The notes beneath the pieces are model-generated. The model was not told the DNA's origin and made no database searches. It saw only the letters and a program-made list of their open reading frames with translations. A stretch of DNA of 55,098 nt from NCBI GenBank assembly GCA_022827625.1, contig JAJEIE010000037.1, positions 1-55,098 of the forward strand. Reading direction: 5' to 3'. The position numbers and the translations under genes were made by a program. Each line of letters begins with the position of its first letter. The first letter of the stretch is position 1. This document shows, piece after piece, positions 20,732 to 48,855 of the stretch. This DNA comes from Candidatus Poribacteria bacterium. Lineage in GTDB: Bacteria > Poribacteria > WGA-4E > WGA-3G.

Positions 20732-23700
20732 ATGCTCACCGGTTTTCAACAGTTTTTAGCCACCTGCATCGGAAAAACAGAAGAAGAGTCTGATCAACCT
20801 ACCGATGCACAAGATGGCGACGAATCCCAAACGGAATTAGAATTCACAACTGACGACAGTTCCGTAGATGACGCTGAAACGACAATATCATCTACGACTG
20901 ATACAGAGGCTCCGGAGTCTACAGAGACCGACGAAAACGACGTGTCCGCGCCAGAGGAAACGCACCCCGAAGCGGATGCCTCGTCTGTTGCTGCAGACGA
21001 GAACCCCCAAACACATCCGGATAGCGATCCGACCCCGCTGGACGAAGATACCGAAGCAAACGAGGACAACGTTCCGATTGAATTAAGCGTAGACGATGCA
21101 CCCGCTGATGAGATTATGGATGCCGCGTCTGCTGAAGGTAACGATACGTCGCAACCCTTAGAACCCACCGACCCGGTCCCTGAAGACGAGACAGAATCAC
21201 CTGTGGAAATTGTCCTATTCACTGAAGAAAGTGAGACCAATCCGCAGGCCACAGAAACCGCAACACAAGAAACTGACGAAAGTGGCGACACGGAATCTGA
21301 AACGGAAGAAGTTCGTGAACCTATACCGGTAGACCTCGGTATTGTTGAGGAGATTTACGACTTCGTGGAGATGTTTGAACATAGCACTATCTCCGGCACA
21401 GAACAAGCATCTGCCAATGGTAGAGACTCTTCAGGCGGTGTCACACAACCTGCGATTTTTGAACACCCAACGCCAACAGAAGTCGCTAAAATTGACTATA
21501 CCCTCTCGCTCCCTGATGTTGATAGCAATGACAAACTACTACTTCACTTTTCCATCGGTTTAAGGGATGGCGTCGTGTTTGACGATACGGCGCGGCAACC
21601 TGGTGGTGTAAAGTTCGCTATCGAAATTTCTTATACAGACGAATCGGCTGCATCAAAAAGATGTTTTGAATCAGTCGTAACCGAATGCCGCTGGCAGGAA
21701 GAGGGCATTGACCTCACAGGTTATGCCGGTAAAGAGATTGTCCTCTCATTCTTGACGGAATGTAACGCCCCAGGCAATAGCAACTACGCGTGGGCATTGT
21801 GGGGCAAACCACAGTTACATAAACTCAAAGAAACCACTCTCCGAAAAGCGAGAAGAGCCCCTGAACCGGAACTCTGGTGTGGTATCGCCATTGTATACTT
21901 AGACGAGAAAAAAAGAGAGATACTGGCGTTTAACCAGCCTGCCTCAACAGGTGTATCGGCACTAACAGAGATTTGTATCGAAACACTCGGTATAAAAGAA
22001 CGTCCCCTCAAAATAGCACTTTACGCTGCACAGCCAAGACTCGAAATTGTAAACGTAGGACCAACAGCCGCAGTCGTCTCAGTAGGTGAAGACTTCGAGA
22101 TACAATGTATCGTACGGAATAGTGGTAGTGCCCCGTTAGGCAAAGCCGATACGGCGCGAATCGCCATCAACGGCTTGAAGTTAAGGCGTGGTAGACCCAG
22201 ACAAACGATCAAAGCGGTTGAACCCGGTGAAGAGACCTCTGTCTTTTGGATCGCTCGCCGTTTTTCACATCCAACCGCGCTCTCTTTCTCAGTTTCGCTA
22301 AAATGCCAAACCTCAGCCGGTGAAGAACGTCAGACCGCTCGAGAGAGCGTTAGCGTGCTTTCTCCGCCACCCAAACTCACCACCAAAGTAACAAAGGAAC
22401 TCCACACGCATCCGCAAGACGGCAGCGTTGTAATGGGGAATAAACACCTCCGCGTCGTTTTTGTCCGTAGCACTCCGCCTGCCACTTCCGACCAGAATGC
22501 TGAAGGTGGATTTGAATACTACGCCCTCTTTGTCGCAAAAGGCGGCAATTACCAACGGGTTGCGACCAGTCCGGCACTCTCTGAAGTCACCTACCTTGAC
22601 GCAGCAGAAAACCGCCAGACCCTTCAACTCGTTCCGACAAAATATCAACTTGCTGGTAACAAAGACGAATCTATCATTCGATTAAGCGGCACAAACACAG
22701 ATGCCGACGGTGTGGAATGGGAGTATGAGATGCGGTGGACCCTGACCGAAGATGCGACCCGAGTTAAAACGGAATACCGATTGCAAACCGACGGAGACAG
22801 GGCGCTCCTCGCCTTCCAGGGTCCGATGCTTTACGCCGGATGTGGACGCAACCCAGAAAAGAAAACGGCGGCACTATTTCCAGGACTTGAATTCTTGGAA
22901 AATGAGGAACGTTCCTCAAGTGCGCGTGATGCAGCCCCACCCCTTGATAACCGTCTGGTCCCGCATCCGTATAAAATCACAATCCCCGTTATGGCAGTAG
23001 AGATACAAAAATCAGTTGTCGGTATCATCTGGAACCCGCTTGATACTTGGGACGGCGAAAACCAAATGCTTTCGGCAATATTCGCCTCACCCAACTGGTA
23101 TCATCACCAGAAGAACCACGCGTTCGGACTGTTTCTGCCAACTGTACCAGAATGGGTTCAGGAAAATGAGACAGAGGCTTCTACACCATATCCACTGACT
23201 CCGGCACGTCCACTCTCCATCAAAAGCCAAATTATCGTCAACGGAAACGCCTCTATTTTAGATGCTGTAACACACTGGACTGATGCTTACGGAACCCCAG
23301 AACCGCTTGAACCGCCCCGTAGTGATGAAGAAGAACTCCTCCTTTCACGACACGGGTTTATGCACACCACATGGGACGAAAACACGCGAAAATCTCGTCA
23401 CTGTGTGGATTGGGCAGCGCACAACGAACCGGGTTTCGGAACGTTACTCTGGTACGATTACCTCGTCACAAAAGATGAACAGGTGAAAGAACGGGCGTTA
23501 GAGATCGCTAAGAATACCATAACAGAATCTGGTAAAGCAGGACTGGCGGCACGAGGTTCCTGCCATATCTTGAGATGGGAATTCCCGTTTTATATCGGTA
23601 ATATCGACGCTGCACTCACCTACATGCAGGAGGAGACGCAGCAGCGGATCAGTACACAAGAACCCGATGGAAGTTGGCGGTGGCAACCGACAAACCCAAA

Positions 23701-24751
23701 AACAGCCTCCCTCGGAAAGGCGGGTGAAGCAGTCATCGGAACCTGCGCTGAATCGGCACTTTTACTCCTCAAACACGCCCGAATTACCGGTAACACCGCA
23801 TCACGAGAGGCTGGGCTGAAGGCACTCGAATTTATGAAGCAATTTTCTGTGCCACGCGGGGCGCAAATGTGGGAATGCCCGATGTATCAACCGGACGTTC
23901 TCGCGGCAGCGCATGCAGTCGGAGCTTATATTGAGGCGCATGAACTCACACGGAAAAAAGAATACCTCAAACGGGCAACTTACTGGGCAGAAACAGCATT
24001 GCCCTTCCTGTATCATTGGCATCTCCCTGACCGGCTCGGCATGCAATTCGCTTCAATCCCCGTCTTTGGTACAAGTTTCCACACCCATCCCTGGTTTGGC
24101 GTGCCTGTTCAATGGAACGGCTTGGTCCTCGCCTATCATTTGCAACATCTGAACCAACATACGAAAGATGAACGGTGGGCCCAAATCGCTGAAGGCATTA
24201 CGATCAGCGCAATGTATCAACAATGGGAAGATGGTGAACTCAAAGGCACTTATCCTGATGGATTCTACGGCTTTTGTACCGAAGGCAAGGGACCCCATCT
24301 GAATCCCGAAGATATTATGGCGAACATCTACAGGCTTCGAGGGCTTGATCCCGGTATTAAAACCCTGATCGCCGGTGAAATACATCTGAGTTCAGGCGCA
24401 AAAATAGATGCACTCACCCGAACCGATCAAGGGCAACTGAACTGGCAACTTAGCTATGCCGAAAACGAAGCAAGTTATACACTTATTACCGGCTACGGAC
24501 GCACCCCACAGGGCGTTCGCGCACGCTATCAGCTTACAGCACCCTCGGAGGATAACGCAACGGATGATGTAAAAGCATCCTCGGACGACTCTGAATCCAG
24601 CAATGTCGCAGAAAAATACGCCGAAACCGAGATTTCTGCTGCGCAAACATTTGAAGAGGTTGAATCCGGATGGCTTTATATCGAAGATAAGGATGCCATA
24701 TTAGTAAAGTATCTGCACGCCACCGCAGACGTGCAGTTTGAACTTGTCTAA
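20732..24751 (+). CDS. Large multidomain protein with acidic N-terminus and predicted alpha-barrel
   Basis: 1339 residues; family not recognised. Residues 16-205 are a low-complexity tract of Asp, Glu, Ser and Thr, predicted disordered. About 245-360 looks like a jelly-roll (galactose-binding-like) domain. 430-530 is Ig-like, of CARDB type. 555-850 is beta-rich. About 880-1215 is helical with repeated Trp/His/Tyr-rich segments (WECPMYQPD, HTHPWFGVPVQWNG, GTYPDGFYGF), consistent with an (alpha/alpha)6 barrel of the kind seen in polysaccharide lyases and GH88/105-like hydrolases. A beta tail ends the protein. No signal peptide is seen, which is odd for such domains. It follows the carbohydrate cluster. 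Confidence 0.75.
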   Translation: MLTGFQQFLATCIGKTEEESDQPTDAQDGDESQTELEFTTDDSSVDDAETTISSTTDTEAPESTETDENDVSAPEETHPEADASSVAADENPQTHPDSDPTPLDEDTEANEDNVPIELSVDDAPADEIMDAASAEGNDTSQPLEPTDPVPEDETESPVEIVLFTEESETNPQATETATQETDESGDTESETEEVREPIPVDLGIVEEIYDFVEMFEHSTISGTEQASANGRDSSGGVTQPAIFEHPTPTEVAKIDYTLSLPDVDSNDKLLLHFSIGLRDGVVFDDTARQPGGVKFAIEISYTDESAASKRCFESVVTECRWQEEGIDLTGYAGKEIVLSFLTECNAPGNSNYAWALWGKPQLHKLKETTLRKARRAPEPELWCGIAIVYLDEKKREILAFNQPASTGVSALTEICIETLGIKERPLKIALYAAQPRLEIVNVGPTAAVVSVGEDFEIQCIVRNSGSAPLGKADTARIAINGLKLRRGRPRQTIKAVEPGEETSVFWIARRFSHPTALSFSVSLKCQTSAGEERQTARESVSVLSPPPKLTTKVTKELHTHPQDGSVVMGNKHLRVVFVRSTPPATSDQNAEGGFEYYALFVAKGGNYQRVATSPALSEVTYLDAAENRQTLQLVPTKYQLAGNKDESIIRLSGTNTDADGVEWEYEMRWTLTEDATRVKTEYRLQTDGDRALLAFQGPMLYAGCGRNPEKKTAALFPGLEFLENEERSSSARDAAPPLDNRLVPHPYKITIPVMAVEIQKSVVGIIWNPLDTWDGENQMLSAIFASPNWYHHQKNHAFGLFLPTVPEWVQENETEASTPYPLTPARPLSIKSQIIVNGNASILDAVTHWTDAYGTPEPLEPPRSDEEELLLSRHGFMHTTWDENTRKSRHCVDWAAHNEPGFGTLLWYDYLVTKDEQVKERALEIAKNTITESGKAGLAARGSCHILRWEFPFYIGNIDAALTYMQEETQQRISTQEPDGSWRWQPTNPKTASLGKAGEAVIGTCAESALLLLKHARITGNTASREAGLKALEFMKQFSVPRGAQMWECPMYQPDVLAAAHAVGAYIEAHELTRKKEYLKRATYWAETALPFLYHWHLPDRLGMQFASIPVFGTSFHTHPWFGVPVQWNGLVLAYHLQHLNQHTKDERWAQIAEGITISAMYQQWEDGELKGTYPDGFYGFCTEGKGPHLNPEDIMANIYRLRGLDPGIKTLIAGEIHLSSGAKIDALTRTDQGQLNWQLSYAENEASYTLITGYGRTPQGVRARYQLTAPSEDNATDDVKASSDDSESSNVAEKYAETEISAAQTFEEVESGWLYIEDKDAILVKYLHATADVQFELV

Positions 24752-25246: not shown

Positions 25247-26161
25247 ATGAGTAACTCATTTAGAAAAAGTTGCATCGTCCTCCATGAAAGTTGCACGACT
25301 GCCTTGGAGGACGAACGCATCACCTCCAAAATAGATCTGGCTTTTCTCGATCCCCCTTTTAATCAAGACAAGGCATACAATGCGTGGGACGACAATCTGC
25401 CCCCAGCGAAATATTGGGAATGGATGCACGAGATCTGTGCAAAAGTGTATACCTTGACTTCCGATGGCGGTGCAATTTACTTCATGCAACGAGAAAAAAA
25501 CGCAGAATTTGTATTGCAGTGCTTACGTGATACCGGATGGACTTTCCAAAACCTGATTATCTGGAAAAAGAAAACCTCAGCAGTGCCAGGGTTGAAACGC
25601 TTCGGCAAACATTACCAAGTCATCGCGTTTGCAACGAAGGGCAAAACACCGTGTGTTTTCCATCGGCTGCGCATTGACCCACCACTGCCAGCAGGCTATA
25701 AACACGCGCGTGAAAATGGTATGTTTGTTACGGACGTGTGGGATGATATCCGTGAGTTAACCTCTGGGTACTTTGCAGGCGATGAAGCGTTGCGAGATGC
25801 AGCAGGAAATCGATTGCATAAACAACAGGCACCTATTCAATTGCTCCTTCGGATCATCCTTTCCTCTACTGATCCTGGTGATGTTGTCCTCGATCCGTTC
25901 GCAGGTTCGGGGACAACGCTCGTCGTTGCAGAACAATTAGGTCGTCACGCGATAGGAATCGAACTTGATTCACACAACGTTACGCTTATTCAGAACAGAC
26001 TTGCCGAACAGAGAAAATCAGATGATGTCTCACGCTTTTTCAAGGATTATGCCTGCACCCCGGATTTGGAAACCATTTGGGGAAACCACGATCCAGATAG
26101 GAAATTTATGTCCTCCGACGAAACTGATGTTAAACAGATGGCTTTTCTTGAGTCAAACTAA
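25247..26161 (+). CDS. Type II DNA methyltransferase, beta-class amino-MTase
   Basis: 304 residues. The catalytic motif IV, DPPF (35-38), precedes the AdoMet-binding motif I DPFAGSGTT (216-224), which gives the beta order N-IV...I-C of N6-adenine or N4-cytosine methyltransferases. HKQQAPIQLL (191-200) corresponds to motif X, which precedes motif I in this class. The specificity region lies between, at about 110-175. DPPF does not settle adenine versus cytosine. The gene 3 nt downstream looks like its cognate restriction enzyme, so together they form a type II R-M system. Recognition sequence unknown. Confidence 0.9.
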   Translation: MSNSFRKSCIVLHESCTTALEDERITSKIDLAFLDPPFNQDKAYNAWDDNLPPAKYWEWMHEICAKVYTLTSDGGAIYFMQREKNAEFVLQCLRDTGWTFQNLIIWKKKTSAVPGLKRFGKHYQVIAFATKGKTPCVFHRLRIDPPLPAGYKHARENGMFVTDVWDDIRELTSGYFAGDEALRDAAGNRLHKQQAPIQLLLRIILSSTDPGDVVLDPFAGSGTTLVVAEQLGRHAIGIELDSHNVTLIQNRLAEQRKSDDVSRFFKDYACTPDLETIWGNHDPDRKFMSSDETDVKQMAFLESN

Positions 26162-26164
26162 TAA

Positions 26165-27031
26165 ATGGCTTACTCAATTTATCACTTCTTCGCTGAGCTA
26201 TGCCAGAAAAAAGCGGAATTCCTCTCAACAAATAAACTTGAGGGTTTTCCATTTGATGAACAAATGCTTTCTTGTATTAACAAGGGCAAATTTCCCGATT
26301 TAGCCATTAAACTTAATTGCGGCGATCCACAGTTCACTGGTGGGGAATTGATTGAACTCAAAGATAGTAAAACCTATGCAGTCGCCTCTTTTAATTCAAC
26401 GATTCCGACTGGTGAAAAAGATATTAAGAAGTTAACAGAAGGGCGAGAAAACATCATCCGAACACAGATGCAGGAAGCAGGCGATGATATATTTTCCTTA
26501 CCTATTCGCCAAGTGTTTTATCTGATTCGGGGTAGAAAACAGTTAAATGTGAAAGTTTGCTTAACTCATGGAAAGTTTTTCGAGACAATCCCCGTTTCAA
26601 CACTGATCTCAGAGTCATTTGCTCAAGCTTTAGAAGAACGGCTAAACGAACTTGGAGAATCTTTGTCGGTATCAATGCGACAGAAATTGTTGGATCTGTT
26701 CAGTGAACAGCAAACTTTCAGTAGAACGAGGAACGTAGATGATGCCTCAGTTCGATTACGTTTTCGTATTATGACAGAAGTTAAAGCTGGTGCGAATATT
26801 TTGAACCCGAATCAGTATCCACAAATCCGAGACAATACATTGAACTTCGCTGTTCCATGTCATAACGATGTCGAACAGAATCAACTGAAAAATAAGATGG
26901 AAATTGCTTTTGGAGAAATGGAATCTGCCAAGTTCTTTTCTCAAATGGAAGTTTTTGTTCTCCAACACCATTTTAATGGAAATTTTCTTATTTTTCAGGC
27001 GAAACTGCCATCTCTGGCTGAAGAAGGATAG
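26165..27031 (+). CDS. Probable type II restriction endonuclease (PD-ELK)
   Basis: 288 residues; no family recognised by overall sequence. A PD-(D/E)XK active-site pattern is visible: F43-P44-D45, then GGELIELKDS with E64-L-K66, spacing 18 residues, on predicted strands. It starts 3 nt after the methyltransferase stop, the classic arrangement of type II systems. The coding sequence is visibly richer in A and T than its neighbours, suggesting acquisition by transfer. The following PhyH gene begins 4 nt after its stop, so all three may share a transcript. The alternative is another nuclease-fold protein. Confidence 0.7.
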   Translation: MAYSIYHFFAELCQKKAEFLSTNKLEGFPFDEQMLSCINKGKFPDLAIKLNCGDPQFTGGELIELKDSKTYAVASFNSTIPTGEKDIKKLTEGRENIIRTQMQEAGDDIFSLPIRQVFYLIRGRKQLNVKVCLTHGKFFETIPVSTLISESFAQALEERLNELGESLSVSMRQKLLDLFSEQQTFSRTRNVDDASVRLRFRIMTEVKAGANILNPNQYPQIRDNTLNFAVPCHNDVEQNQLKNKMEIAFGEMESAKFFSQMEVFVLQHHFNGNFLIFQAKLPSLAEEG

Positions 27032-30716: not shown

Positions 30717-33700
30717 ATGAAAATTCATAATAGGAGTCAGCAGGATCCGAGACATTTCAATGTGATAACAAACCTAACTGCGCAACGCATGGGTGTAAGC
30801 CACGCTTTAATTCTTTGTCTTTCTATTTTACTTATCAGCGGACTCTGCCATACTGCATACACGCAAACGGTTTCCAGCACCGGTATGCAAACCGCAGCCA
30901 TCCAGATCCGAGATGATCTGTCCATTGGCAACATCCGGAAGGACATTGCCCGTCTGTCAAGTTTAGAGAGCCGTGTAACAGGTTACCCACAATCCGCAAG
31001 CGGCAGTAAATACATCTTTGACCGGTTCGTCGAAATCGGCTTGCAAAATGTAGAAAGTCGAGAGTTCCCAGTCACGGTCCCCATCGATCACGGCGATAGC
31101 GTTGTTGAGATAGTCTCACCAGACGGGACTGTCCTACATAGTTTCAAACTCACGCCACTTTGGCCAAATCTTGTCCGAACTTCCCTATTAGCAGATGGAA
31201 TTAAGCACACCGTTTTAGCAGGCGAAACACTTCAGGACATCGCTGCAAGTTACCAGATCTCTGAAGAGGTTATCCTCGCAAATGAACGAAACAAATTCTT
31301 GCCCTCTCCTGTTGTAGAAGGAAACAGCGTGTATATTCCAACTGGCGGTTTATCCGGTCCGCTCCTTTACGGTGACGATGGCGAACTCGCCGACTTCAAC
31401 GGCACTAATATCGGCGGATTTTGGCATAAACTCCAAGATGGAGATACCCTTACATCGCTTGCGCGGCGTTATCGCATCACAGAAGCCAGTATCACTGACG
31501 ATGTCCTCAACGAACATCTCCAGAAAGCGTCCGACGGCATTGATAACGATGAAGATGGTACTATTGATGAATACGGTGAAATTCCACTGCTCTCCGAGAT
31601 TCTCGGATGGGCAACAGATGGTATCGACAACGATGCAGACGGTTGGACAGACGAAATCCCAGGCGACGCTACCGACGGTATTGACAATAATCAAGATGGA
31701 CACATTGATGAATCTGGCGAGTTCGTCGCTGCCAGCGAAGCACACATTTTCATCCCGAAGGGTGCCATAGTTCTCCTCGACTTTAACTCCAGCACCCGTT
31801 ATATTAACGCAACAATGCTCGGCGGGACCGCTATTATCTTCATTGAACCTGAAACAACCATCCGCGGGGAAGCAGAGAACAAATTCGGCACAGTGCCTGC
31901 CAATATACCACGATTCTGGATATCTAAAGCAGATGCCGACTTCCTCACGAATCTGCTTGAACAAGAACACAACGCAGGAAACCAAGTAAACGCCCGCGTC
32001 AGAGGAAAGATGACATGGGAACGTCGCGTCGGCCAGAACATACGCGGTTTCTTGGAAGGTGGTGACCCATCGTTACGGGATGAACTCATCGTCCTTACCG
32101 CTTACTATGATTCTATGTCCATTGTGCCTGCTATGGCACCGGGCGCAGATCCGACTTGCGGTGTTGCCACCCTCATGGAACTCGCAAGGCTCTTTAGCCT
32201 ACCCGAATATCGCCCAGGATATTCCATTCTGTTTGTCGCAGTTGACGGGCATTTCCAAGGACTCGCTGGCATGCGTGCATTTATGGAAGGCATCGGACAG
32301 GATATTGTCGGTAGTGACACGGACTCTCCCGGCACACCAACAATGCACGGACTACGCCGCGGACTCTCTACAGATGTTATTGAATTTGAAGAATTGGGTA
32401 GAAGACTTCTGCTCTCAATTGACCGGAGCGTCTTAGTTGATCTCCCTTCCGACTTTTTCCACGGTATACATAACGTAAAATCTGACCTCGAATCCCTGAC
32501 GACCACCTTAGACGGCTTGGCAGAAACCCGCTCTGAGATCGAAACCCTCACGAACCAGCAACGCGACTTCTCGGAACGCCAGAAGAAACAAGCCGACAAA
32601 AATCGGAAACGCGAAAAGCAAGAATTCACTGGTGAAGAGAAGAGTATATTATTGGCAAACCTCGCCCGCTCAAAGAAAGAAGCACTCCAAACAACGCATT
32701 TCCTACGAGACATTGTTGAGGAATTAGCCGCCGTTCGTACCGTTGCTCTAAACACAAGTCGCACCGCACAACGTGAATTAATTGAAACGCTGGCATTACC
32801 AATCGCTCGTCTTGACACATGGGCTGTAGCGAAACTCATTCGCGCCATAGAAACGGGTATGGCTGACGAATATGCCACGCATCCAAACGATGCCTACCTG
32901 ATCCCCGTGCAACAAGGTTCAGGGTGGAACATTCCCGTTCCCAGTGATCTCCCCGAAGAATTGGTCCCTGATATTGAGATGCTAAACCAAACACTCGCAG
33001 ACTGGGAGATGAGCGATAAACGCAAATTCGCCCTAATGTGGACCCCCGAAAAAATCATGGACCGGCATCTCGATTTACACGGACTTACTGACGCGAAACT
33101 GGCACGTAAGGTCTTGCGCGAAGCCGACAACTCCCTTGAGGTTGCCATTCAAGCGGAAGCCCAACTCCTCGAAAAAATCTTAGCCCAAATCCCTGATAGC
33201 AAGGCTTCTGAAGACCAGATTAAAGCGAGTATCCGGAAACTCAAGGAAACCCCTATGTCGCAAGAAGACACCAACATGCTACTCTATAGTGGGAAATTCC
33301 TCTCTAACGCCGGTATCGAACGCTTGAACACTATTGACACACAACTCCGACAACGGTTAAACGAATCTGAAGACCTCACTGATGCCGCTGTCCTGATCAC
33401 TGATCTGCTCAAAGACAAGCAGAGCATTTTTGAAATCGGACTCCGAAACGCTCGCTTAGAGCGAACCCGCACCCAAAACTTGATGGCAACTGCTGAGACG
33501 CTTGGAAGAGAATACTTAGATGAAGAAAAACTCATCCTGAAAAACTATCTCTCAGACACTGAAACAGAGCAGGCACTCAAGTTACGCGCCCATATCTCAT
33601 CACACATCAAGGAAGCAGATCTTCTGGCGATCGTCAAAAGACGTTCGGAAGCAGACATCATCGCGCTCGAAAACCTCATAGAAAGATTGTCTACTTTAGA

Positions 33701-36700
33701 TACCGACCTTGATACAGAGACGAAGACCCTTCTGCGCGATAATATGCTAACGCTCCGAAATGCCCGATTCCGCAACATTCAGAGCCGTATTGAAAAGATG
33801 CTACGGATTGACACCGGAGAATATAACCGAAAACTTGGACAGATTGAAGCCGCTATTGCACTTCAAGACCTCTTCAATCGCTACTACACCTCTCTCTATA
33901 TTAGCATCGACCTCTCCTCACAATCGGATCAATTTGGTGTGTTCAACAAGGGCTGGTTCTACGACCAACAGCCTGAATTCGTCCTGCGCCGTGAGTTCGC
34001 GAGTATTGGTAACCAACTCGCCTCCTATGCAGAAGATGCCGATTTTGGGGTCCGTGTACGGAAACTTTGGCAGTGGACAGATGACCAGATCCGACAAGCC
34101 GTTATGGCACGCCAATGGACTGTGGCTGGCGGAATCTCTGATAAATCCGCCCTTGAAGGAAAAACCCTTGAAACGCTCCTCAGCTCCCATTTCAGTAAAC
34201 TCACAGGCCTTAGCGGTGTCAGTCGCTTAATGAAAATGCAATTCGAGCAATGGCGCAACCAAGGTGAACCTTCCGAAGATATGCTCAAGGATATGGACTA
34301 TATCCGTAAAGAGGTCGAGCGTTTCATCCGAAACGATGTCCGCACGGCAAAGAAAAATCGGAAGAATAATATCCGAACGCGTGAGCAGTTGGACGCAATG
34401 CTGCGCTTGCGACATGAGGACCCAGAAACCTTCTCCGATGATGAAATTGAGGACATCAAAACCCTCATCTCAATCGTCGGTCTCGGTGGTGATTCAAACT
34501 TCGTCAATGCTATCTCCGCGAGTGGCGGAAAAACCTGGAAAACTTATATTCCGGGTAAGATTGCTTTCGATAGCGAAGTCGCAACGCTCGTCGGAAAAAC
34601 AGGTATCGCCTTCGCAACTATTGAAGACGCTCGCGTGCTAACGGACACACCACTTGATACAATCGACCGGGTCGATCTACACGAGGGTGGAAACCTTCAT
34701 CAACAAGCACAAACGCTCGCATCTTTACTTATTCAGGCACTCCGCGATGAAGAAATGCCGACCGCTGCACGCGTCGGGAATTTCTATTGTAACCTTTTCG
34801 GTGATGTCGTTGAATTTGATGCCCGTGAATCCGCATTACCGAATAAGCCGGTTCCCTATCCAATCTTGACGCTTCGCAGAAAGCATAAAACCATGATGGG
34901 TGTCCGTGGAGACCTATTCGTTATGGGCGATAACAAAGGCAACTTCGAGGTCGCTGGATTAGCCATGGAAGGTAGAGCCACACGCCGCCTCAGGGGCCTA
35001 CAGGAAGTGGAAGCCTATATCCTTGATCCAGATTCTGGCGACATCATCTATGCCCCAGATTTAGGGAACTATGGTGCGAAACTGCTTCCCAATCAAATCC
35101 CGATCAACACCCGAAGGCGCGGGTGTCGGGTCGTCACATTTCCGTGCGTATCTACAACCATCTACGATCTTGTGGACCAGCGGTATTTACGAACCCTGCG
35201 GGAACTTGAAGTCTATGACGCACTCACTGACAGCGCACCTGAGAAGTTCGGGATGTCAAAACCGTGGCAGCAGGAAGGGGTCTCGGCAGCTGAACCGATT
35301 GCCCTCGTTTATAGCGAACCGAATACGCGTATTAAGGTCGGAATGGCTTACGGACAAATTGGTAAACGGCTTTTACTTATTAAAGCCACAAAAAGCGGTA
35401 TGAAAAATCCGACGCTCTATACCGGCGAAGGTTTCGTTGTTCGTGAAAACGGTCGGATTCGTCTCACGCCTTATGTCGTTGTCCGCGATATGTGGTGGCT
35501 TGACGAAAACCGATCACAACTCTATAAACGGTTCGGTATCTCCAGTGACCGACTCGATAAACTCCACCAATTCGCGAATGAGTACCTCGCACGCGCTGAA
35601 ACGGAATTACTACAAAATGACTATCAGCAAGCACTGAAACTCGCACGTGCCGCCTGGGGCTACGAATCACGCGCATACCCAGACGTTAAACAGACAGGCA
35701 ACGACGTTGTGAACGGTGTGATGTTCTATCTCGCCCTACTGATGCCGTTTGCTTACTTCATGGAACGGCTTATCTTCGGTTTCCCGAATATCCACAAGCA
35801 GATTTTAGGGTCATTCGGGATCTTTTTACTCGTTTTCTTCTTCCTCAGCCAAGTACATCCGGCATTCCAGATTACAACCACACCTGTGATTATCCTAATT
35901 GCATTCGTTGTGCTTGCCTTAACAGTTATTGTCATCAGTATCATTGTCCGAAAATTCGAGGAACAACTTGAAAAGATTCGGCAGGAGGGCAGCAAGGTTT
36001 ACAAAGCAGATGTCGGACGGTTGAGCGCGAGTGCCGCAGCGTTTAGCTTGGGGATTTCCAACATGCGGAAACGCAAAGGGCGCACAATCCTAACCTGCTG
36101 TACATTGGTAATCCTGACTTTCACTGTCATCTCGTTTACCTCCGTGCGAACGTTTATGCATCCGAATAGAACAAGTCTCCCGCAGGTAACGCCTCGCTAT
36201 ACAGGGCTTCTCATCCGAGACCAATACTGGCGCCCGTTAGAGGAACCGGTGCTTACTTCTGTGCTAAACGACATGCAGAAGACCCAAATCACACTCACTG
36301 CTCTCGAGCGGCTCCTGGAACGTAAAAACGAAATTCTGGTCAAACAGGGACAACAACCCGTCAATATTGCGGAAGAGATAGCGACTTTAGAGCAAGGCGG
36401 ATTTATTGAAAAAGTAGACGAAGAATCTGTCGTCGTTGTTCGGAATTCCGTCGCACCACGCGCCTGGTATCAATCCTCAGGTACGGGAGACCAGTCTTTT
36501 GTCCAACTCACACGTACAACGAATCCTGCGGATCCATCGCCCCCAACCCATCCACTTACGGGTGAAGCCCTAACCTTTGCCGCGAATATGCTCGTCGGTA
36601 TGAACGAAGCAGAACCCGATGTTAGCGGTATCAACAGATACCTCCAGTATGGAAAATGGTTCAATCCCGTTGATGCTGGAGAGTGGCCAACGGAATGGCC

Positions 36701-38066
36701 CTATGCTATCGTGCTACCTAAAGGGATGGCAGAACTGCTGAAAATCACTGAAAGCGATATGGGGAAGGCGACGGTCTCTGTGTACGGCGCAGACTTTACC
36801 GTTGTTGGTGTTCTTGGCATCGGTTTCAAGGACCTCACAGACAACGATGGTGAAGAACTAACACCTGTTGACTATCAGTTGATGCAACAGCAGCGGAGCC
36901 GTGGAGCAACCGGTGATGAAACACTCGAAGGTGAGTTACAGAAATATCTCCACCTTACACCGGATAGCGTTGCTATCCTGCCCTACGAAGTCGTCATGAA
37001 CCAAGGTGGCACCCTCCGAAGTGTCGCTGTTAACATGGAACCCCAAACGGATGATCCACAGTTGTTAAGTTCGATTGATAAGCTGGATCTCATCATGGCA
37101 CCGCTCATGAACCGCATCGCTCTTGACTTCTTCGTTGGTCGTGATAAAGACACATATCTCTATAGTAGCATCGGAATGACAAGTTTCAGTGGGATGGGCA
37201 ATCTATTCGTACCGATCCTAATCGCTGCGCTTATCGTACTTAATACGATGCTTGGGGCAGTCTATGAGCGGGTCCGAGAAATTAGCATTTACAGCTCCGT
37301 CGGACTCGCCCCGGTACATATCGCCTTCCTCTTCCTCGCAGAGGCGTGTGTCTACGCTATCGTCGGTGCCGTGCTTGGGTACCTCATGGGACAAGCAATC
37401 GCAACAACCCTCGTAAACTTTGGATGGCTCGCTGGGTTGACACTCAACTATTCCTCAATGTCAACTGTCGTTGCGACGATTATCGTCATGATTGTTGTTC
37501 TACTGAGTACCCTATATCCAGCAATTAAAGCCTCACGTATGGCGGTTCCCGATATCGAACGTAAATGGAAACTCCCAGAACCCGAAGGCGATGTCTGGCA
37601 TTTCAACCTTCCGTTTACCGTCCTTGAAGAGGAAGCACTCGGTCTGAACGTATTCATGCGGGACTACTTCGAGGCACACGCAGACGAGTCTGCCAGCGAT
37701 TTTTATACCGATCAGGTCGCCTTCAGCGCGGTGGAATCTGAAGATGCCTATCAAATTGGTATGATGGTATGGTTAGCACCTTATGATTTAGGTGTAAGCC
37801 AGTCTATCCAGTTCGTTACATCGCCTGTAGGTGGAGAAGAGGAAGACCTCTATAAGATCACACTCGATGTACATCGTGAGAGCGGCGAGATCGCCTCTTG
37901 GAAACGTGTGAACCGACGTTTCCTCAATCTATTGCGGAAACAACTGCTGATTTGGCGGACATTCAGTGTCGATATCCGGGCAGAATTCCATGAACGCGGT
38001 AGAACAGAAGGAACAGACGAACCGGCAACAGGACAACTCGAGCCAGTCCCGACACCAGCGGATTAA
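30717..38066 (+). CDS. Giant M28-like / LysM / FtsX-type permease fusion protein
   Basis: 2449 residues. A signal-anchor lies at 28-48. Residues 66-530 form an M28-peptidase-like region with a PA domain. A LysM module is at 163-208. A second LysM (from 236) is split by three DGIDND-type Ca-binding motifs (273-285, 301-313, 320-332) and resumes at AHIFIPKG (342-349). The peptidase metal motifs are degraded: AHYDS reads AYYDS (462-466), GADDN reads GADPT (476-480), and the EE pair is lost at VDGHFQGLAG. Residues 550-1050 are helical and charged. Three membrane spans lie at 1670-1745 and one near 1800, then a MacB-like periplasmic domain. The last 2160-2260 are an FtsX-type three-helix core with REISIYSSVGL, then a 150-aa soluble tail. 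Probably works with the ATPase at 42461. Confidence 0.88.
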   Translation: MKIHNRSQQDPRHFNVITNLTAQRMGVSHALILCLSILLISGLCHTAYTQTVSSTGMQTAAIQIRDDLSIGNIRKDIARLSSLESRVTGYPQSASGSKYIFDRFVEIGLQNVESREFPVTVPIDHGDSVVEIVSPDGTVLHSFKLTPLWPNLVRTSLLADGIKHTVLAGETLQDIAASYQISEEVILANERNKFLPSPVVEGNSVYIPTGGLSGPLLYGDDGELADFNGTNIGGFWHKLQDGDTLTSLARRYRITEASITDDVLNEHLQKASDGIDNDEDGTIDEYGEIPLLSEILGWATDGIDNDADGWTDEIPGDATDGIDNNQDGHIDESGEFVAASEAHIFIPKGAIVLLDFNSSTRYINATMLGGTAIIFIEPETTIRGEAENKFGTVPANIPRFWISKADADFLTNLLEQEHNAGNQVNARVRGKMTWERRVGQNIRGFLEGGDPSLRDELIVLTAYYDSMSIVPAMAPGADPTCGVATLMELARLFSLPEYRPGYSILFVAVDGHFQGLAGMRAFMEGIGQDIVGSDTDSPGTPTMHGLRRGLSTDVIEFEELGRRLLLSIDRSVLVDLPSDFFHGIHNVKSDLESLTTTLDGLAETRSEIETLTNQQRDFSERQKKQADKNRKREKQEFTGEEKSILLANLARSKKEALQTTHFLRDIVEELAAVRTVALNTSRTAQRELIETLALPIARLDTWAVAKLIRAIETGMADEYATHPNDAYLIPVQQGSGWNIPVPSDLPEELVPDIEMLNQTLADWEMSDKRKFALMWTPEKIMDRHLDLHGLTDAKLARKVLREADNSLEVAIQAEAQLLEKILAQIPDSKASEDQIKASIRKLKETPMSQEDTNMLLYSGKFLSNAGIERLNTIDTQLRQRLNESEDLTDAAVLITDLLKDKQSIFEIGLRNARLERTRTQNLMATAETLGREYLDEEKLILKNYLSDTETEQALKLRAHISSHIKEADLLAIVKRRSEADIIALENLIERLSTLDTDLDTETKTLLRDNMLTLRNARFRNIQSRIEKMLRIDTGEYNRKLGQIEAAIALQDLFNRYYTSLYISIDLSSQSDQFGVFNKGWFYDQQPEFVLRREFASIGNQLASYAEDADFGVRVRKLWQWTDDQIRQAVMARQWTVAGGISDKSALEGKTLETLLSSHFSKLTGLSGVSRLMKMQFEQWRNQGEPSEDMLKDMDYIRKEVERFIRNDVRTAKKNRKNNIRTREQLDAMLRLRHEDPETFSDDEIEDIKTLISIVGLGGDSNFVNAISASGGKTWKTYIPGKIAFDSEVATLVGKTGIAFATIEDARVLTDTPLDTIDRVDLHEGGNLHQQAQTLASLLIQALRDEEMPTAARVGNFYCNLFGDVVEFDARESALPNKPVPYPILTLRRKHKTMMGVRGDLFVMGDNKGNFEVAGLAMEGRATRRLRGLQEVEAYILDPDSGDIIYAPDLGNYGAKLLPNQIPINTRRRGCRVVTFPCVSTTIYDLVDQRYLRTLRELEVYDALTDSAPEKFGMSKPWQQEGVSAAEPIALVYSEPNTRIKVGMAYGQIGKRLLLIKATKSGMKNPTLYTGEGFVVRENGRIRLTPYVVVRDMWWLDENRSQLYKRFGISSDRLDKLHQFANEYLARAETELLQNDYQQALKLARAAWGYESRAYPDVKQTGNDVVNGVMFYLALLMPFAYFMERLIFGFPNIHKQILGSFGIFLLVFFFLSQVHPAFQITTTPVIILIAFVVLALTVIVISIIVRKFEEQLEKIRQEGSKVYKADVGRLSASAAAFSLGISNMRKRKGRTILTCCTLVILTFTVISFTSVRTFMHPNRTSLPQVTPRYTGLLIRDQYWRPLEEPVLTSVLNDMQKTQITLTALERLLERKNEILVKQGQQPVNIAEEIATLEQGGFIEKVDEESVVVVRNSVAPRAWYQSSGTGDQSFVQLTRTTNPADPSPPTHPLTGEALTFAANMLVGMNEAEPDVSGINRYLQYGKWFNPVDAGEWPTEWPYAIVLPKGMAELLKITESDMGKATVSVYGADFTVVGVLGIGFKDLTDNDGEELTPVDYQLMQQQRSRGATGDETLEGELQKYLHLTPDSVAILPYEVVMNQGGTLRSVAVNMEPQTDDPQLLSSIDKLDLIMAPLMNRIALDFFVGRDKDTYLYSSIGMTSFSGMGNLFVPILIAALIVLNTMLGAVYERVREISIYSSVGLAPVHIAFLFLAEACVYAIVGAVLGYLMGQAIATTLVNFGWLAGLTLNYSSMSTVVATIIVMIVVLLSTLYPAIKASRMAVPDIERKWKLPEPEGDVWHFNLPFTVLEEEALGLNVFMRDYFEAHADESASDFYTDQVAFSAVESEDAYQIGMMVWLAPYDLGVSQSIQFVTSPVGGEEEDLYKITLDVHRESGEIASWKRVNRRFLNLLRKQLLIWRTFSVDIRAEFHERGRTEGTDEPATGQLEPVPTPAD

Positions 38067-38528: not shown

Positions 38529-40517
38529 TTGGCGAGAGAAAGAGTATCACAAGCAGATGAATGGCAAGCTTGGGCGCAGCGATACGACATTGAAGGCGGT
38601 ATCCGTACCTTTGAGTCGGGGCTAACGGTCAAGGTGTTTGTTGGCGCACTTTTCGTTGGCTTGCTGATGATGCCTGGCTCCATCTATCTCAGTTACGTAT
38701 CCGGTCAATCTGGTGCTGAAGCGGCACCTTGGGTTGCCGTTATTCTATTTACCGAACTCGCACGGCGTTCCTTCACAACCGCCCGGCGGCAGGAGCTTTA
38801 TATGCTCCTCGGATTAACGGGTGCCGCCGTTGGTAGTGGAATGCAGTACCGGAACTTTATCTGGTACGCCTATTTTATCAATACACCACAAGCAGCGTCT
38901 TACGAAATCGCAGATAAAATCCCAGAGTGGATTGTGCCTGCCGGTGACTCTGTCGGTGTCCTTACGCGAAGTCTGCTGCACCCAGACTGGTTTCTGCCTA
39001 TTGCTATCTATCTTGCCGGTAAGCTGCTCGGCACGTTGCGTTTCGTTAGCGGACAATACATTTTGTTCCGACTCACGGCTGACTTGGAGCGGCTCCCATA
39101 TCCGATGGCACCCATTGCCGCACAAGGGGCAACCGCACTCGCAGAAACAACAGGTAAAGAAGAGACTTGGCGATGGCGCGTCTTCTCTATCGGATCCATG
39201 GCTGGGTTAATCTGGGGATTCCTCTATATCGGTGTGCCTTCATTGACCGGGGTCATGATGAGCCAACCGATTGAGATCTTGAAAATCCCGTGGATAGATT
39301 TCACGCAGAGCATTGAAGGTTTCGCACCCACAGGTGTCTTCGCGCTCCGAACCGATTTCGGGCAGATGCTCATCGGGTTCGTGATGCCATTCCCGATTAT
39401 CATGTCGGAGTTCATAACCGCAATCGCATCGCAATTTATCTTGAACCCACAAATCCTATACCGGTATGAGATCCTCCACCAGTGGAACCCAGGATTGGAT
39501 GTCCGTGGCGTTACTTTATTCAACAATCTGGATTTCTGGTTTAGTTACGGCATGGGTAAATCCTTTAGTCTCGCTGTCGTCGGTATGGCAGCTTCGATTC
39601 CGATGCTCTTTAAACTTCGGAAAGCTCAGAAAAGCGCAGGCGAACGTGGATCCTTCGCAACGCCTCCAAATCGAGGGGATTTCCCGATATGGTTGATGGG
39701 CTTAATGTGGCTCGTCGGTATGGCTGGCTTCGTTTGGCTTATTCATTGGATGGTCCCGAATTTCCCGCTCAGTTTCTTGCTCGGCTACGCGTTCCTGTAC
39801 ACGCCGATTAATTCCTATATCACGGCGCGGACTTTTGGGGTCCTCGGACGAGACCTTTTTGAAATCCCATACCTCCATGAAATTACCTTTATCTTGAGTC
39901 GCTACGAAGAGATAGACATCTGGTTTGCACCACTACCAGACGAAGATTACGGACGTGGTACACAAGGGTGGCGCGTGCTCGAATTGACCGGCACAACCTT
40001 TACCTCAAACCTTGCAGGTACACTCCTTATTATGCCGATCTTGCTCGTCAGTGGGATTGTCGTCCTCCACTTTATCTGGAAGATTGCCCCCATTCCGAGC
40101 GCACAGTACCCGTTCGCACAGATGATGTGGCCCATTAACGCTACAAACGAGGCACTCTGGAAAACATCACTACGGGACGGAAATAGCGAAATGCTTCAGG
40201 CGATTCGCGGCGATTATGTCTCCGCCGGATTTACCTCAAGTCTCGCACTCTACGGTATGCTGTGGGTCTTTAAATTACCTTCAATGTGGTTTTACGGTAT
40301 CGTCGGGGGTATCGGGTCAGACCCAGGCAGTATGGTAGCCCGACTCCTCGGCGCAATTATCGGGCGGTTCTATATGATTAAACGCTTCGGAATGCGGCGC
40401 TGGTATATGTTCAATCCGGTACTTGCAGCCGGATTCGCCTGCGGGGTCGGTCTCATCGGTATGGGAACCGTGGCAATTGCACTTGTTTCCAAAGCTGTTA
40501 TCGTAAAACCGTTTTAA
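38529..40517 (+). CDS. Large polytopic membrane protein, OPT/DUF6785-like
   Basis: 662 residues, about 14 hydrophobic segments, with conserved pieces resembling the 9827-11809 protein: ELARRSFTTARRQELYMLLGL, LERLPYPMAPIAAQG and SLALYGMLWVFKLPSMWFYG. It belongs with OPT-related DUF6784/6785 membrane proteins. The substrate is unknown. The start is TTG 38529, with AAGGAG 9 nt upstream; there is no in-frame ATG before the first membrane span. It lies inside the gene run of the giant FtsX fusion and the LolD-type ATPase, suggesting a shared envelope-related function. Confidence 0.8.
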   Translation: MARERVSQADEWQAWAQRYDIEGGIRTFESGLTVKVFVGALFVGLLMMPGSIYLSYVSGQSGAEAAPWVAVILFTELARRSFTTARRQELYMLLGLTGAAVGSGMQYRNFIWYAYFINTPQAASYEIADKIPEWIVPAGDSVGVLTRSLLHPDWFLPIAIYLAGKLLGTLRFVSGQYILFRLTADLERLPYPMAPIAAQGATALAETTGKEETWRWRVFSIGSMAGLIWGFLYIGVPSLTGVMMSQPIEILKIPWIDFTQSIEGFAPTGVFALRTDFGQMLIGFVMPFPIIMSEFITAIASQFILNPQILYRYEILHQWNPGLDVRGVTLFNNLDFWFSYGMGKSFSLAVVGMAASIPMLFKLRKAQKSAGERGSFATPPNRGDFPIWLMGLMWLVGMAGFVWLIHWMVPNFPLSFLLGYAFLYTPINSYITARTFGVLGRDLFEIPYLHEITFILSRYEEIDIWFAPLPDEDYGRGTQGWRVLELTGTTFTSNLAGTLLIMPILLVSGIVVLHFIWKIAPIPSAQYPFAQMMWPINATNEALWKTSLRDGNSEMLQAIRGDYVSAGFTSSLALYGMLWVFKLPSMWFYGIVGGIGSDPGSMVARLLGAIIGRFYMIKRFGMRRWYMFNPVLAAGFACGVGLIGMGTVAIALVSKAVIVKPF

Positions 40518-40686: not shown

Positions 40687-41721
40687 ATGGACTGGACCGT
40701 TTTTGGCTGGGCAGGCATACAACTCGAAATTCCGACAACTTGGGAACTCAGTGGACTCAGTGGCGACCAGAAAACGGGTTACTTGCGACTCGACGACGCT
40801 GAAATGCCGCGTCTCGAACTCAAATGGGCACACACCCGACGCAAAAAACCGGACATGCACGCAACGCTCGACGAATATTTTAAGCTGATTCGTAAAACCT
40901 ACAAGAAAGGTGCTGAACTTTCTTTCCGTCGAAACGTTAATTTCATCAAAGATCCTGAGTTTTTTGAGGGACGTACCGTCCTCGGTTTTAGTTGGAAAGG
41001 CAGTATTCGTGCCAATGGATTGATCTTCCACGCCGGAAAACGGATCACGATTGTCCAAGTGATGGGGCGACTCAAAGAAAACTTGCGTCCGACAGTCCTC
41101 CGTATCTTTCAATCAATCACCGATCACAGAAACGCGCCACAGACGCTTTGGAGTGCCTATGGGCTTAAATTAGGGGTTCCCAGAGAATACAAATTAGAAC
41201 GTCAGAAACTGTTGAGTGGCTATTTGCTGTTCGCTTTCGTCGCGAAAAAAGAACGTTTTCAAAGCGTGATAAAACTCGCTAAATCGGCAAGCGATCGCCT
41301 ACGGAATAATGGCACAGTTGAATACAAAGCGTCTCCATCGCCTGACAGAGGAAGTCTCAGTATCGAGCGATACGGACCCGCAGAGGTGATGCTAAGTGAC
41401 TACACAGACACACCGAACCCGCTTGAGGCATGGTTCCGCGCCAAATACGCAAAAGCAATTCGCGGCTACGGGTTTGAAGTAACATCACACACAGATGCCG
41501 AAGACGATTACCTTACACTTATTGGACAACAGACACGGCTCTACGATGGTATACCACTTACACCGGTATTAATGCTCGACAAACTCTCTAAACGGACAAC
41601 GCTTGTCTTTCATTTATGGCGATGTAATGACTCTAACCGTATCTATGTTATCCAGTCTATCAGTCATACCGACGCATCCTCGACCGTCCAAAAGGTAGCT
41701 GAGAGTATTGAATGCCATTGA
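40687..41721 (+). CDS. Two-repeat soluble protein of unknown function
   Basis: 344 residues; not recognised. Two similar halves can be seen. The first starts WAGIQLEIPTTWELSG and the second AYGLKLGVPREYKLER, each followed by GYL-LxF-like strands. This suggests duplicated PsbP/DUF1795-like alpha-beta domains. There is no signal peptide, so it is presumably cytoplasmic. It stands between the OPT-like membrane protein and the PqqD-like gene in a single-direction run. The ATG has no Shine-Dalgarno; the upstream repeat arm ends just before it. Confidence 0.65.
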   Translation: MDWTVFGWAGIQLEIPTTWELSGLSGDQKTGYLRLDDAEMPRLELKWAHTRRKKPDMHATLDEYFKLIRKTYKKGAELSFRRNVNFIKDPEFFEGRTVLGFSWKGSIRANGLIFHAGKRITIVQVMGRLKENLRPTVLRIFQSITDHRNAPQTLWSAYGLKLGVPREYKLERQKLLSGYLLFAFVAKKERFQSVIKLAKSASDRLRNNGTVEYKASPSPDRGSLSIERYGPAEVMLSDYTDTPNPLEAWFRAKYAKAIRGYGFEVTSHTDAEDDYLTLIGQQTRLYDGIPLTPVLMLDKLSKRTTLVFHLWRCNDSNRIYVIQSISHTDASSTVQKVAESIECH

Positions 41722-41871: not shown

Positions 41872-42339
41872 ATGCTAAACAGACTCCTATACACCCTCAA
41901 ACTTAAGAAACGTCCTGATGTGGATCGCACACAGGTCATGAAATCGTTTCCTGTGCGCAATCAGTTGATTACATGGGAGATAGACGACAAAGGCGAAGCG
42001 TCGCTTGTTGTCCCCCAGAAAGATAAACTCTGGATCCGACTTGCCAGCAAATTCTTCATGCTTCCAAATAAGAGAGTGATTGTGTTGGATTCCATCGGGA
42101 GTTATGTATGGCAGAAGTGTGACGGTAAGCATACCATTTCACAGATCGTCAAAGCGGTTCAAAATCAGTACCAACTGACCCGAAAAGAGGCTGAAACGTC
42201 GCTTTTTACGTTTATGCAGCAGCTCGGCAAACGGAACTTCATCGGGTTCGCCATCCCTGACAACCGACAAAACGCGCCGGCAACACCAGAACCCGAACCT
42301 GAAAAACAGGGCATTTTTGGATTCCTACAGAAACGGTAA
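41872..42339 (+). CDS. PqqD-family protein
   Basis: 155 residues. The centre (about 25-110) matches the PqqD fold: conserved WEIDDKGEASLVVP, VIVLDSIGSYVWQKCDGKHT, then SQIVKAV and a helical C-terminal part ending FIGF. PqqD-like domains are peptide chaperones (RiPP recognition elements) that bind precursor peptides for modification enzymes. Here no radical SAM enzyme or precursor is adjacent, so another peptide- or protein-binding role in the permease operon is possible. The C-terminus is a Pro/Glu linker plus GIFGFLQKR. No Shine-Dalgarno is seen. Confidence 0.8.
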   Translation: MLNRLLYTLKLKKRPDVDRTQVMKSFPVRNQLITWEIDDKGEASLVVPQKDKLWIRLASKFFMLPNKRVIVLDSIGSYVWQKCDGKHTISQIVKAVQNQYQLTRKEAETSLFTFMQQLGKRNFIGFAIPDNRQNAPATPEPEPEKQGIFGFLQKR

Positions 42340-42341
42340 GT

Positions 42342-42445
42342 AATAAAGTTGTAAAGTGTGCTAAAGTGCAGCTAAAGTCATTGGAATACAAACATAACTT
42401 TACGGACTCCAGAACACTTCCAACTTGCGAATTTTTAATTGGCAT
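42342..42445. repeat. Intergenic inverted repeat with AAAGTG words
   Basis: The left side AAGTTGTAAAGTGTGCTAAAG is partly complementary to the right side CAGAACACTTCCAACTTGCG. The segment ACACTTCCAACTTGCGAA near 42413-42431 recurs almost identically at 48015-48035. Confidence 0.5.
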
Positions 42446-42460
42446 CTACTGGAGAAAAAA

Positions 42461-43273
42461 ATGAACATACCGACAGAAATCGGCGACGTTAACGCGATTC
42501 TCGCCGAAACACCAGAAAAGTTCCAGCGCGTCCTGCCAAAAGAAAATACAGTCCGCGTGCGGAACCTCATTAAACGCTATGAGATGGGGACACAGACCGT
42601 TGATGCGCTCCGCGGTGTCAATTTCCAGATTCAACGCGGCGAATACATCTCCATCATGGGTCCCTCTGGTTCAGGAAAATCAACGCTTTTCAATATGATT
42701 GGTGGACTCGATAAACCGACCGAAGGCAGAGTCTACATTGACGAAGTAGACATCGCACAGCTCGATGCCTACGAACTCGCATGGCTCCGCTGTCGAAAGA
42801 TTGGTTATATCTTCCAGGCTTTCAATCTCATCCCCGTTATGACGGCACTCGAAAATGTTTCACTGCCGATGATCTTTGCGGGTATGAGTGCCGACGAAAG
42901 CAGGGAAAAAGGCGTTGATCTGCTTTCACTCGTTGGACTCGGTGATCGTGTACAACACAAACCGTTAGAACTCTCCGGCGGACAGCAACAGCGTGTTGCA
43001 ATCGCACGTTCCCTCGCGAACGATCCAGCGATTGTTCTCGCCGATGAACCGACAGGAAACCTCGACACCAAAACCGGGTTAGAAATCATTGCATTGCTCC
43101 GTCGACTTAACGTGGAAAACGGCGTAACCATCATCACCGCGACACACGACCACAAGATGTTAGATGTTTCCGACCGTATCTTCCACATGGCGGACGGTAA
43201 AGTGGACAAGATGGAATCTCGAGATGAGATTGATCTCCGCGTCGGGAAATTAGACGGTGAAGAAGTGGGGTAA
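42461..43273 (+). CDS. ABC transporter ATP-binding protein, LolD/MacB type
   Basis: 270 residues from ATG 42461 (GGAG 7 nt upstream). Complete nucleotide-binding domain: Walker A GPSGSGKST (67-75), Q-loop FQAFNLIP, signature LSGGQQQRVAIA (171-182), Walker B IVLADEPTGNLD (191-202), H-loop TATHDHK. The sequence around the signature and GNLDTKTG is typical of the LolD/FtsE/MacB subgroup that drives type VII (FtsX-type) permeases. The only FtsX-type permease upstream in the run is the giant fusion protein, so they are likely partners. It has a 30-aa N-terminal extension. The stop is followed directly by the ATG of the next gene. Confidence 0.93.
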   Translation: MNIPTEIGDVNAILAETPEKFQRVLPKENTVRVRNLIKRYEMGTQTVDALRGVNFQIQRGEYISIMGPSGSGKSTLFNMIGGLDKPTEGRVYIDEVDIAQLDAYELAWLRCRKIGYIFQAFNLIPVMTALENVSLPMIFAGMSADESREKGVDLLSLVGLGDRVQHKPLELSGGQQQRVAIARSLANDPAIVLADEPTGNLDTKTGLEIIALLRRLNVENGVTIITATHDHKMLDVSDRIFHMADGKVDKMESRDEIDLRVGKLDGEEVG

Positions 43274-47984: not shown

Positions 47985-48038
47985 GGATACCCCTTCCATA
48001 ACTTGCAAACTTTAGCCACACTTCCAACTTGCGAACTT

Positions 48039-48839: not shown

Positions 48840-48855
48840 TTTTTGGTAATACCTA

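Follow-up and report, generated by a model that had tools for sequence, protein, structure and literature searches.

A conserved gene cluster of Poribacteria and Armatimonadota encodes a giant FtsX-type permease with a pseudo-M28 peptidase ectodomain

Type VII ABC systems perform periplasmic work by mechanotransmission and not by ordinary transport (PMC12646458). LolCDE, MacAB-TolC, FtsEX-EnvC, YbbAP-TesA and BceAB contain a four-TM unit of the FtsX type and an ATPase of the LolD/MacB class, and both are likewise encoded in the gene cluster described here. In contrast to these systems, the giant permease of this cluster carries in addition a fused pseudo-M28/PA ectodomain, three extra TM helices and a conserved C-terminal tail, and its operon in Poribacteria and Armatimonadota adds OPT-fold and PqqD-like partners. 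The ectodomain shares fold and domain order with M28 aminopeptidases that contain an inserted PA domain (2ek8 and BSAP/YwaD; profile E=1.9e-24, structure E=1.1e-23). The M28/PA fold is also in non-enzymatic use in nicalin/nicastrin and in transferrin receptor 1. Nicalin and the transferrin receptor are among the sequence matches of the giant protein; in contrast to it, these proteins are eukaryotic and are not fused to an ABC permease. The cluster occurs in almost all Poribacteria and in many Armatimonadota, and it probably encodes an ATP-driven cell-envelope machine that is previously undescribed. In the open-licence literature no account of the giant-permease system was found under FtsX-M28 fusions or under FtsX in Poribacteria/Armatimonadetes, nor was any paper found there on the operon, its OPT partner or the fusion with a pseudo-M28 domain.

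The window, i.e. the whole stretch of DNA analysed, comprises positions 1-55,098 (55,098 nucleotides) of contig JAJEIE010000037.1 from a Candidatus Poribacteria bacterium (GCA_022827625.1). An earlier note, made from the letters alone, had read in it a 2449-aa protein combining a metal-dead M28 peptidase, LysM, Ca-binding repeats and a C-terminal FtsX permease. This reading was supported by the ORF, which has an ATG start and occupies 30717-38066 on the + strand, and by Pfam. LysM (PF01476, 32.1 bits against a cut-off of 20.9, in two stretches), Peptidase_M28 (31.0 bits, aa 441-524, above the curated cut-off) and FtsX (PF02687, 45.6 bits against 25.5, aa 2165-2275) were all found in the giant protein, together with a weak match to MacB_PCD (16.6 bits, cut-off 27). 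The PA domain was recognised in relatives and by predicted fold. Among solved structures, the C-terminus is closest by sequence to LolC (7arh, E=4.5e-9) and MacB, and the M28 part to the pseudo-M28 protein nicalin.

The protein is built by nesting, and all of its parts are given here on the + strand. A predicted signal peptide or N-terminal TM segment (aa 1-52, 30717-30872, hydropathy peak at aa 22-40) is followed by the N-terminal helices of M28 (aa 60-146, 30894-31154), placed by profile alignment to 2ek8/YwaD and the transferrin receptor. The PA domain (aa 147-404, 31155-31928) has 258 aa, compared with about 94 aa in Armatimonadota, and is enlarged by inserts. These are LysM1 (aa 162-212, 31200-31352), a Pfam LysM domain not present in Armatimonadota, and LysM2 (aa 236-268), in which three DGIDND Ca-type loops (aa 269-341) precede the closing strand (31422-31739 in all). 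The earlier note had LysM and PA domains bracketing or interrupted by DGIDND repeats; the inserts are indeed present, and the order is refined to two LysMs inside PA and PA inside M28, with the loops inside LysM2. The M28 core (aa 425-523, 31989-32285) is followed by a charged helical insert of 537 aa that is specific to Poribacteria (aa 524-1060, 32286-33896) and had gone unrecognised in the earlier note. Beyond it the M28 fold resumes with its C-terminal half (aa 1061-1330, 33897-34706), which holds D1065, E1287 and a DTPLDT motif. Hence the M28 fold extends to about aa 1330 and is not confined to residues 1-550, the part named in the earlier note. An unnamed beta-rich periplasmic region (aa 1331-1655, 34707-35681, dN/dS 0.00-0.02), recognised in the model of a relative, then leads to three additional TM helices (about aa 1660-1785, 35694-36071, motif PFAYFMERL, dN/dS near 0) ahead of the four TM helices of the FtsX-type unit. 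This unit (36084-37586), matched by Pfam FtsX and by LolC/MacB, comprises TM1, a periplasmic domain (aa 1815-2150) and TM2-4 (aa 2151-2290), and is followed by the conserved C-terminal tail (aa 2291-2449, 37587-38063). The periplasmic domain, at the place where this class has a Porter/Sabre-type domain between TM1 and TM2, is the part with the weak, sub-threshold resemblance to MacB_PCD.

The AlphaFold2 model of the relative L098 (aa 45-974, pLDDT 89.6, pTM 0.86) has an M28 plus PA fold and no other; its best PDB matches in structure comparison were M28 aminopeptidases with a PA domain, led by 2ek8. By homology to this model, the window protein is predicted to have the same fold. Profile alignment to 2ek8 (Aneurinibacillus), YwaD and the Vibrio aminopeptidase placed the motifs AYYDS and GADPT and the missing EE pair, all pointed out before, on the positions of the aminopeptidase ligands within the M28 core. 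Y463 of AYYDS occupies the position of the metal ligand His97, with D465 retained at Asp99; P479 of GADPT replaces the bridging Asp117; and H512-F513 stand at Glu151/Glu152. Compared with 2ek8 and BSAP/YwaD, the giant protein thus has H97, D117 and E152 replaced, His for E151 and, by inferred register, Glu at the place of H256, and in Poribacteria the M28 domain is split by the long insert.

This loss is general among the relatives. The earlier note had named homologues with intact ligands, or another predicted fold, as results that would refute its reading; neither was found, every ligand position having been inspected in the 93 aligned representatives (36 Poribacteria and 57 Armatimonadota rows). 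Among 126 distinct sequences the His97 position is Y, F, S, N or P and never H (one gap), the Asp117 position is P, S, N, T, Q, A, G or E and never D, and Glu152 is found in none. Asp99 is retained in 125 of the 126, and the general base Glu151 is His in every one of them (H512 in the window protein). Among 140 distinct sequences of the C-terminal half, Asp179 is kept in 137 (D1065 in the window protein) and the position assigned to His256 is Glu in 138 (E1287), the remainder being gaps in both cases; the His256-to-Glu register is the weakest assignment, as the profile alignments secure the positions as far as D179 and again at the DTPxDT motif further on, but not between the two. Asp179 alone is therefore kept from the dinuclear metal ligand set of His97, Asp117, Glu152, Asp179 and His256. 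The giant protein has the M28 alpha/beta fold but neither the ligands of active M28 enzymes nor their general base.

Comparison of the window protein with relatives giving usable dS values yielded a dN/dS of about 0.02-0.05 for the M28 core, with 0.08 for the most distant pair, and of about 0.01-0.02 for the M28 C-terminal half, which is comparable to the FtsX helices. In most comparisons LysM1 was under the weakest constraint (about 0.03-0.23). The M28 segments are thus under purifying selection, which indicates constraint on a new role and not decay. A decaying pseudo-domain or an assembly artefact without function might be suspected from the lost catalytic residues and from the fact that most genomes surveyed were metagenome-assembled. 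However, the frame is unbroken in the 82 Poribacteria genomes and in the majority of the Armatimonadota matches, single-contig genomes included, and dN/dS in the M28 segments is mostly below 0.1; distribution and dN/dS together rule this explanation out, and we consider it next to inconceivable. The peptidase fold appears to have been rebuilt into a conserved, non-canonical pocket around H512, D465, D1065 and E1287.

Such a pocket could in principle be a new mononuclear-metal or metal-free active site, so that the protein would be a re-tooled enzyme. The four residues are invariant across two phyla despite the loss of the canonical ligands, and the title of the original report (Bzymek 2005, cited in PMC4320195) calls the E151H variant of the Vibrio/Aeromonas enzyme functional. 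That variant retained the other ligands, however, and in the giant protein His97, Asp117 and Glu152 are all gone. We know of no M28 enzyme that works with a set of the H512/D465/D1065/E1287 type. Overall, enzymatic activity of this kind appears quite improbable, and the lost metal site, the strong constraint, the fusion to FtsX and the LolD-like ATPase in the operon are best explained by the binding or sensor module of the earlier note, driven by hydrolysis of ATP.

At E<=1e-30, 82 of the 85 Poribacteria genomes contain the giant protein, mostly in single copy; at E<=1e-20, 198 of 291 Armatimonadota genomes contain relatives. The latter have about 1600 aa and are 38-39% identical in the best segment. 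A pattern scan of reference genomes, which would miss divergent relatives, matched Poribacteria and three Armatimonadota-type records. A second copy of the giant permease, of 2560-2561 aa and about 61% identical, occurs in two genomes of one genus (L192, 5927-13609; also L083 and L084); it is solitary, with no operon partner nearby.

The two phyla differ in what is inserted into the ectodomain. Where complete, the PA segment has 91-97 aa in Armatimonadota and 209-278 aa in Poribacteria, in which it contains two LysM domains and one to three DGIDND loops. LysM and Ca-binding inserts were present in all 36 Poribacteria representatives and in none of the 57 Armatimonadota rows. In deep Poribacteria LysM1 also carries a DGIDND loop, which the lineage of the window lacks there. 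The second insert, located between the strand of Glu151/152 and that of Asp179, is charged and helical and has 491-564 aa in Poribacteria; at the same place 14-183 aa are found in Armatimonadota. Seven Armatimonadota loci (L099, L132, L134, L152, L153, L154 and L164) have two TM helices at this place, by which the M28 fold would be threaded through the membrane.

The restriction of the LysM and Ca repeats to Poribacteria makes wall contact an add-on of this phylum. Coupling to the cell wall, which the earlier note had attached to its binding or sensor module, therefore does not hold as a general property, and a cell-wall tether as the general function is ruled out. The same evidence bears on a regulator of wall or division of the FtsEX type, in which ATP-driven movement of the ectodomain would control a peptidoglycan enzyme and the LysM domains and Ca loops would serve as wall anchor. 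The Type VII class, the LysM domains, the Ca-type loops and the long helical insert are consistent with it, and FtsEX controls wall amidases via a periplasmic partner (PMC12646458). Yet Armatimonadota keep the dead M28 domain, the FtsX part and the operon without LysM domains, Ca loops or the long insert. Furthermore, the conserved operon encodes no wall hydrolase, an OPT-fold transporter would be unexpected in such a system, and the giant permease scored only 20.8 bits against the cut-off of 250 of the cell-division FtsX model FtsX_actino. A wall regulator is thus unlikely.

Downstream of the giant gene and on the same strand, four genes follow: P0002, a membrane protein of 662 aa with an OPT/YSL fold (38529-40517); P0003, a conserved protein of 344 aa belonging to no known family (40687-41721); P0007, a PqqD-like protein of 155 aa (41872-42339); and P0004, a LolD/MacB-class ABC ATPase proposed to be the motor subunit (42425-43273). 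Among 57 Poribacteria loci for which 6 kb or more of downstream sequence was available, 52 showed the order giant-P0002-P0003-PqqD-ATPase, a count drawn from two collections in which some genomes were counted twice. Forty-five of these loci are plain and one has a doubled PqqD call; the other six (L056, L057, L064, L067, L075 and L091) encode two tandem copies of the OPT-fold gene. Six of 12 Armatimonadota loci show the same order with a stub FtsX gene added between PqqD and ATPase, and in other Armatimonadota the arrangement is stub-ATPase-giant-P0002.

Neither P0002 nor P0003 has a Pfam family or a relative of solved structure by sequence. The predicted fold of P0002 is that of the OPT/YSL transporter YS1 of barley (7wsr, E=1.6e-10, TM-score 0.60, model pLDDT 81); unlike OPT/YSL transporters it has no match to Pfam OPT in any of 31 members, and it is encoded in an ABC operon. 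No copy of P0002 was found on plasmids. P0007 matched PF05402 (PqqD) with 47.4 bits against a cut-off of 23.4 and remained below TIGR03859, the equivalog of PqqD in PQQ biosynthesis (34.4 bits, cut-off 46). A radical-SAM/RiPP setting of the PqqD-like gene was rejected, since the neighbour in the Armatimonadota gaps inspected was the stub FtsX gene and not a radical SAM gene.

The P0004 ATPase scored best with the LolD model, followed by DevA, DarD, MacB and YbbA. Each of three Armatimonadota genomes encodes one orthologue with 62-73% identity, the next sequences being at most 52% identical, and the orthologues form a clade with a support of 98/98. The stub permease of Armatimonadota mostly has 215-290 aa (440-630 aa at a few loci) and no large ectodomain, which recalls BceAB, a system that lacks the first periplasmic domain (PMC12646458). 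A stub orthologue is present in nearly all Poribacteria genomes away from the giant-permease operon, e.g. on contig 14 of genome G000 (132921-133580, 52% identity). There the stub, of 229 aa, adjoins a second LolD-like ATPase (L211, 8093-9608), which is paralogous and falls outside the clade of the operon ATPases.

The LolD-like ATPase also raises the question of a machine of the LolCDE or YbbAP-TesA type that extracts lipids, lipoproteins or lipopeptides, in which the dead M28/PA part would present the extracted molecule. Besides the nearness of the ATPase to LolD and its match to YbbA, the FtsX part has LolC as its best match in the PDB, and YbbAP-TesA combines a Type VII ABC system with a hydrolase fold (PMC12646458). 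On the other hand, Poribacteria have a separate permease resembling LolC/E (about 238 bits), LolA was present in 10 of 13 genomes, and the giant permease reached only 19.4 bits against the lolCE cut-off of 362. In addition, the OPT partner would be left unexplained. Extraction is hence a possible but doubtful function, and the separate LolC/E-like and mostly LolA genes rule out that the giant-permease system is the sole Lol machine of Poribacteria.

Two PADLOC models of the group CARF_m8, 'CARF_LolE_TM' and 'CARF_Beta-galactosidase_LolE_TM', matched the region of the giant protein that comprises the three TM helices, the FtsX unit and the tail, most of the tail lying within the CARF_LolE_TM match. 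The E-value was 3.6e-49 for the window protein and 1.1e-54 for L098, of which aa 841-1566 aligned with profile positions 32-682 of 810. A related core has therefore already been modelled under a CARF label. The model names refer to CARF or beta-galactosidase parts, and M28, LysM and the OPT partner are not named. To our knowledge, no function is known for these LolE_TM models.

Taken together, the product of the giant gene is probably the large permease subunit of a new Type VII ABC machine of the FtsX/MacB/LolCDE class, with a ligand-binding pseudo-peptidase ectodomain. By analogy with LolC/LolE over LolD, the giant and the stub permease may form a pair that sits on two ATPase copies. Adjacency in Armatimonadota suggests this pairing; as the Poribacteria stub lies elsewhere beside a paralogous ATPase, it could differ there. 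Binding and hydrolysis of ATP would then move the periplasmic part of the giant permease, and the pocket of H512, D465, D1065 and E1287 would bind a ligand without cleaving it. In Poribacteria, the LysM pair with its Ca loops and the long helical insert may tether the machine to the peptidoglycan or span towards it.

Peptides and metal chelates are the substrates of OPT transporters, the M28 fold binds the N-termini of peptides, and peptides are also bound by folds of the PqqD type. Judged by the folds of these three parts, a peptide-like cargo is our first choice. A peptide or peptide-like metal chelate as the ligand that would be handed on to the OPT-fold protein P0002 can accordingly be proposed tentatively. 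The more specific scheme, in which an ATP-driven FtsX-class motor with a pseudo-aminopeptidase receptor loads such cargo into a separate OPT-fold importer, would be an ABC machine of a new type that combines primary with secondary transport and belongs to the core of the phylum Poribacteria; we regard it as conceivable but rather doubtful.

Elsewhere in the window, an ORF of 1339 aa (20732-24751, +), whose long N-terminus is acidic and of low complexity, had no Pfam or PADLOC match. A solitary N6/N4 DNA methyltransferase (25247-26161, +; PF01555, 158 bits) is followed by a gene without a Pfam match (26165-27031). An ABC-2 type transporter consisting of an ATPase and an ABC2_membrane_6 permease (46968-48890, -) is apparently unrelated to the operon. 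No RNA elements were found in the window.

Beyond the earlier note, this study provides the remainder of the M28 domain, the replacement residues H512, D1065 and E1287, and the partner genes; it is the partner genes and the conserved replacement residues that matter most for function. Type VII ABC systems are distinguished by their partner proteins, and few types have been worked out. The nested M28, PA, LysM and Ca-loop parts illustrate how an ectodomain was enlarged by insertion inside one phylum. The giant-permease system, two subunits of which have no Pfam family, is near-universal in the uncultured phylum Poribacteria and also common in Armatimonadota, of which some members have been cultured, and the defined genes and residues are testable in a cultivable Armatimonadota strain.
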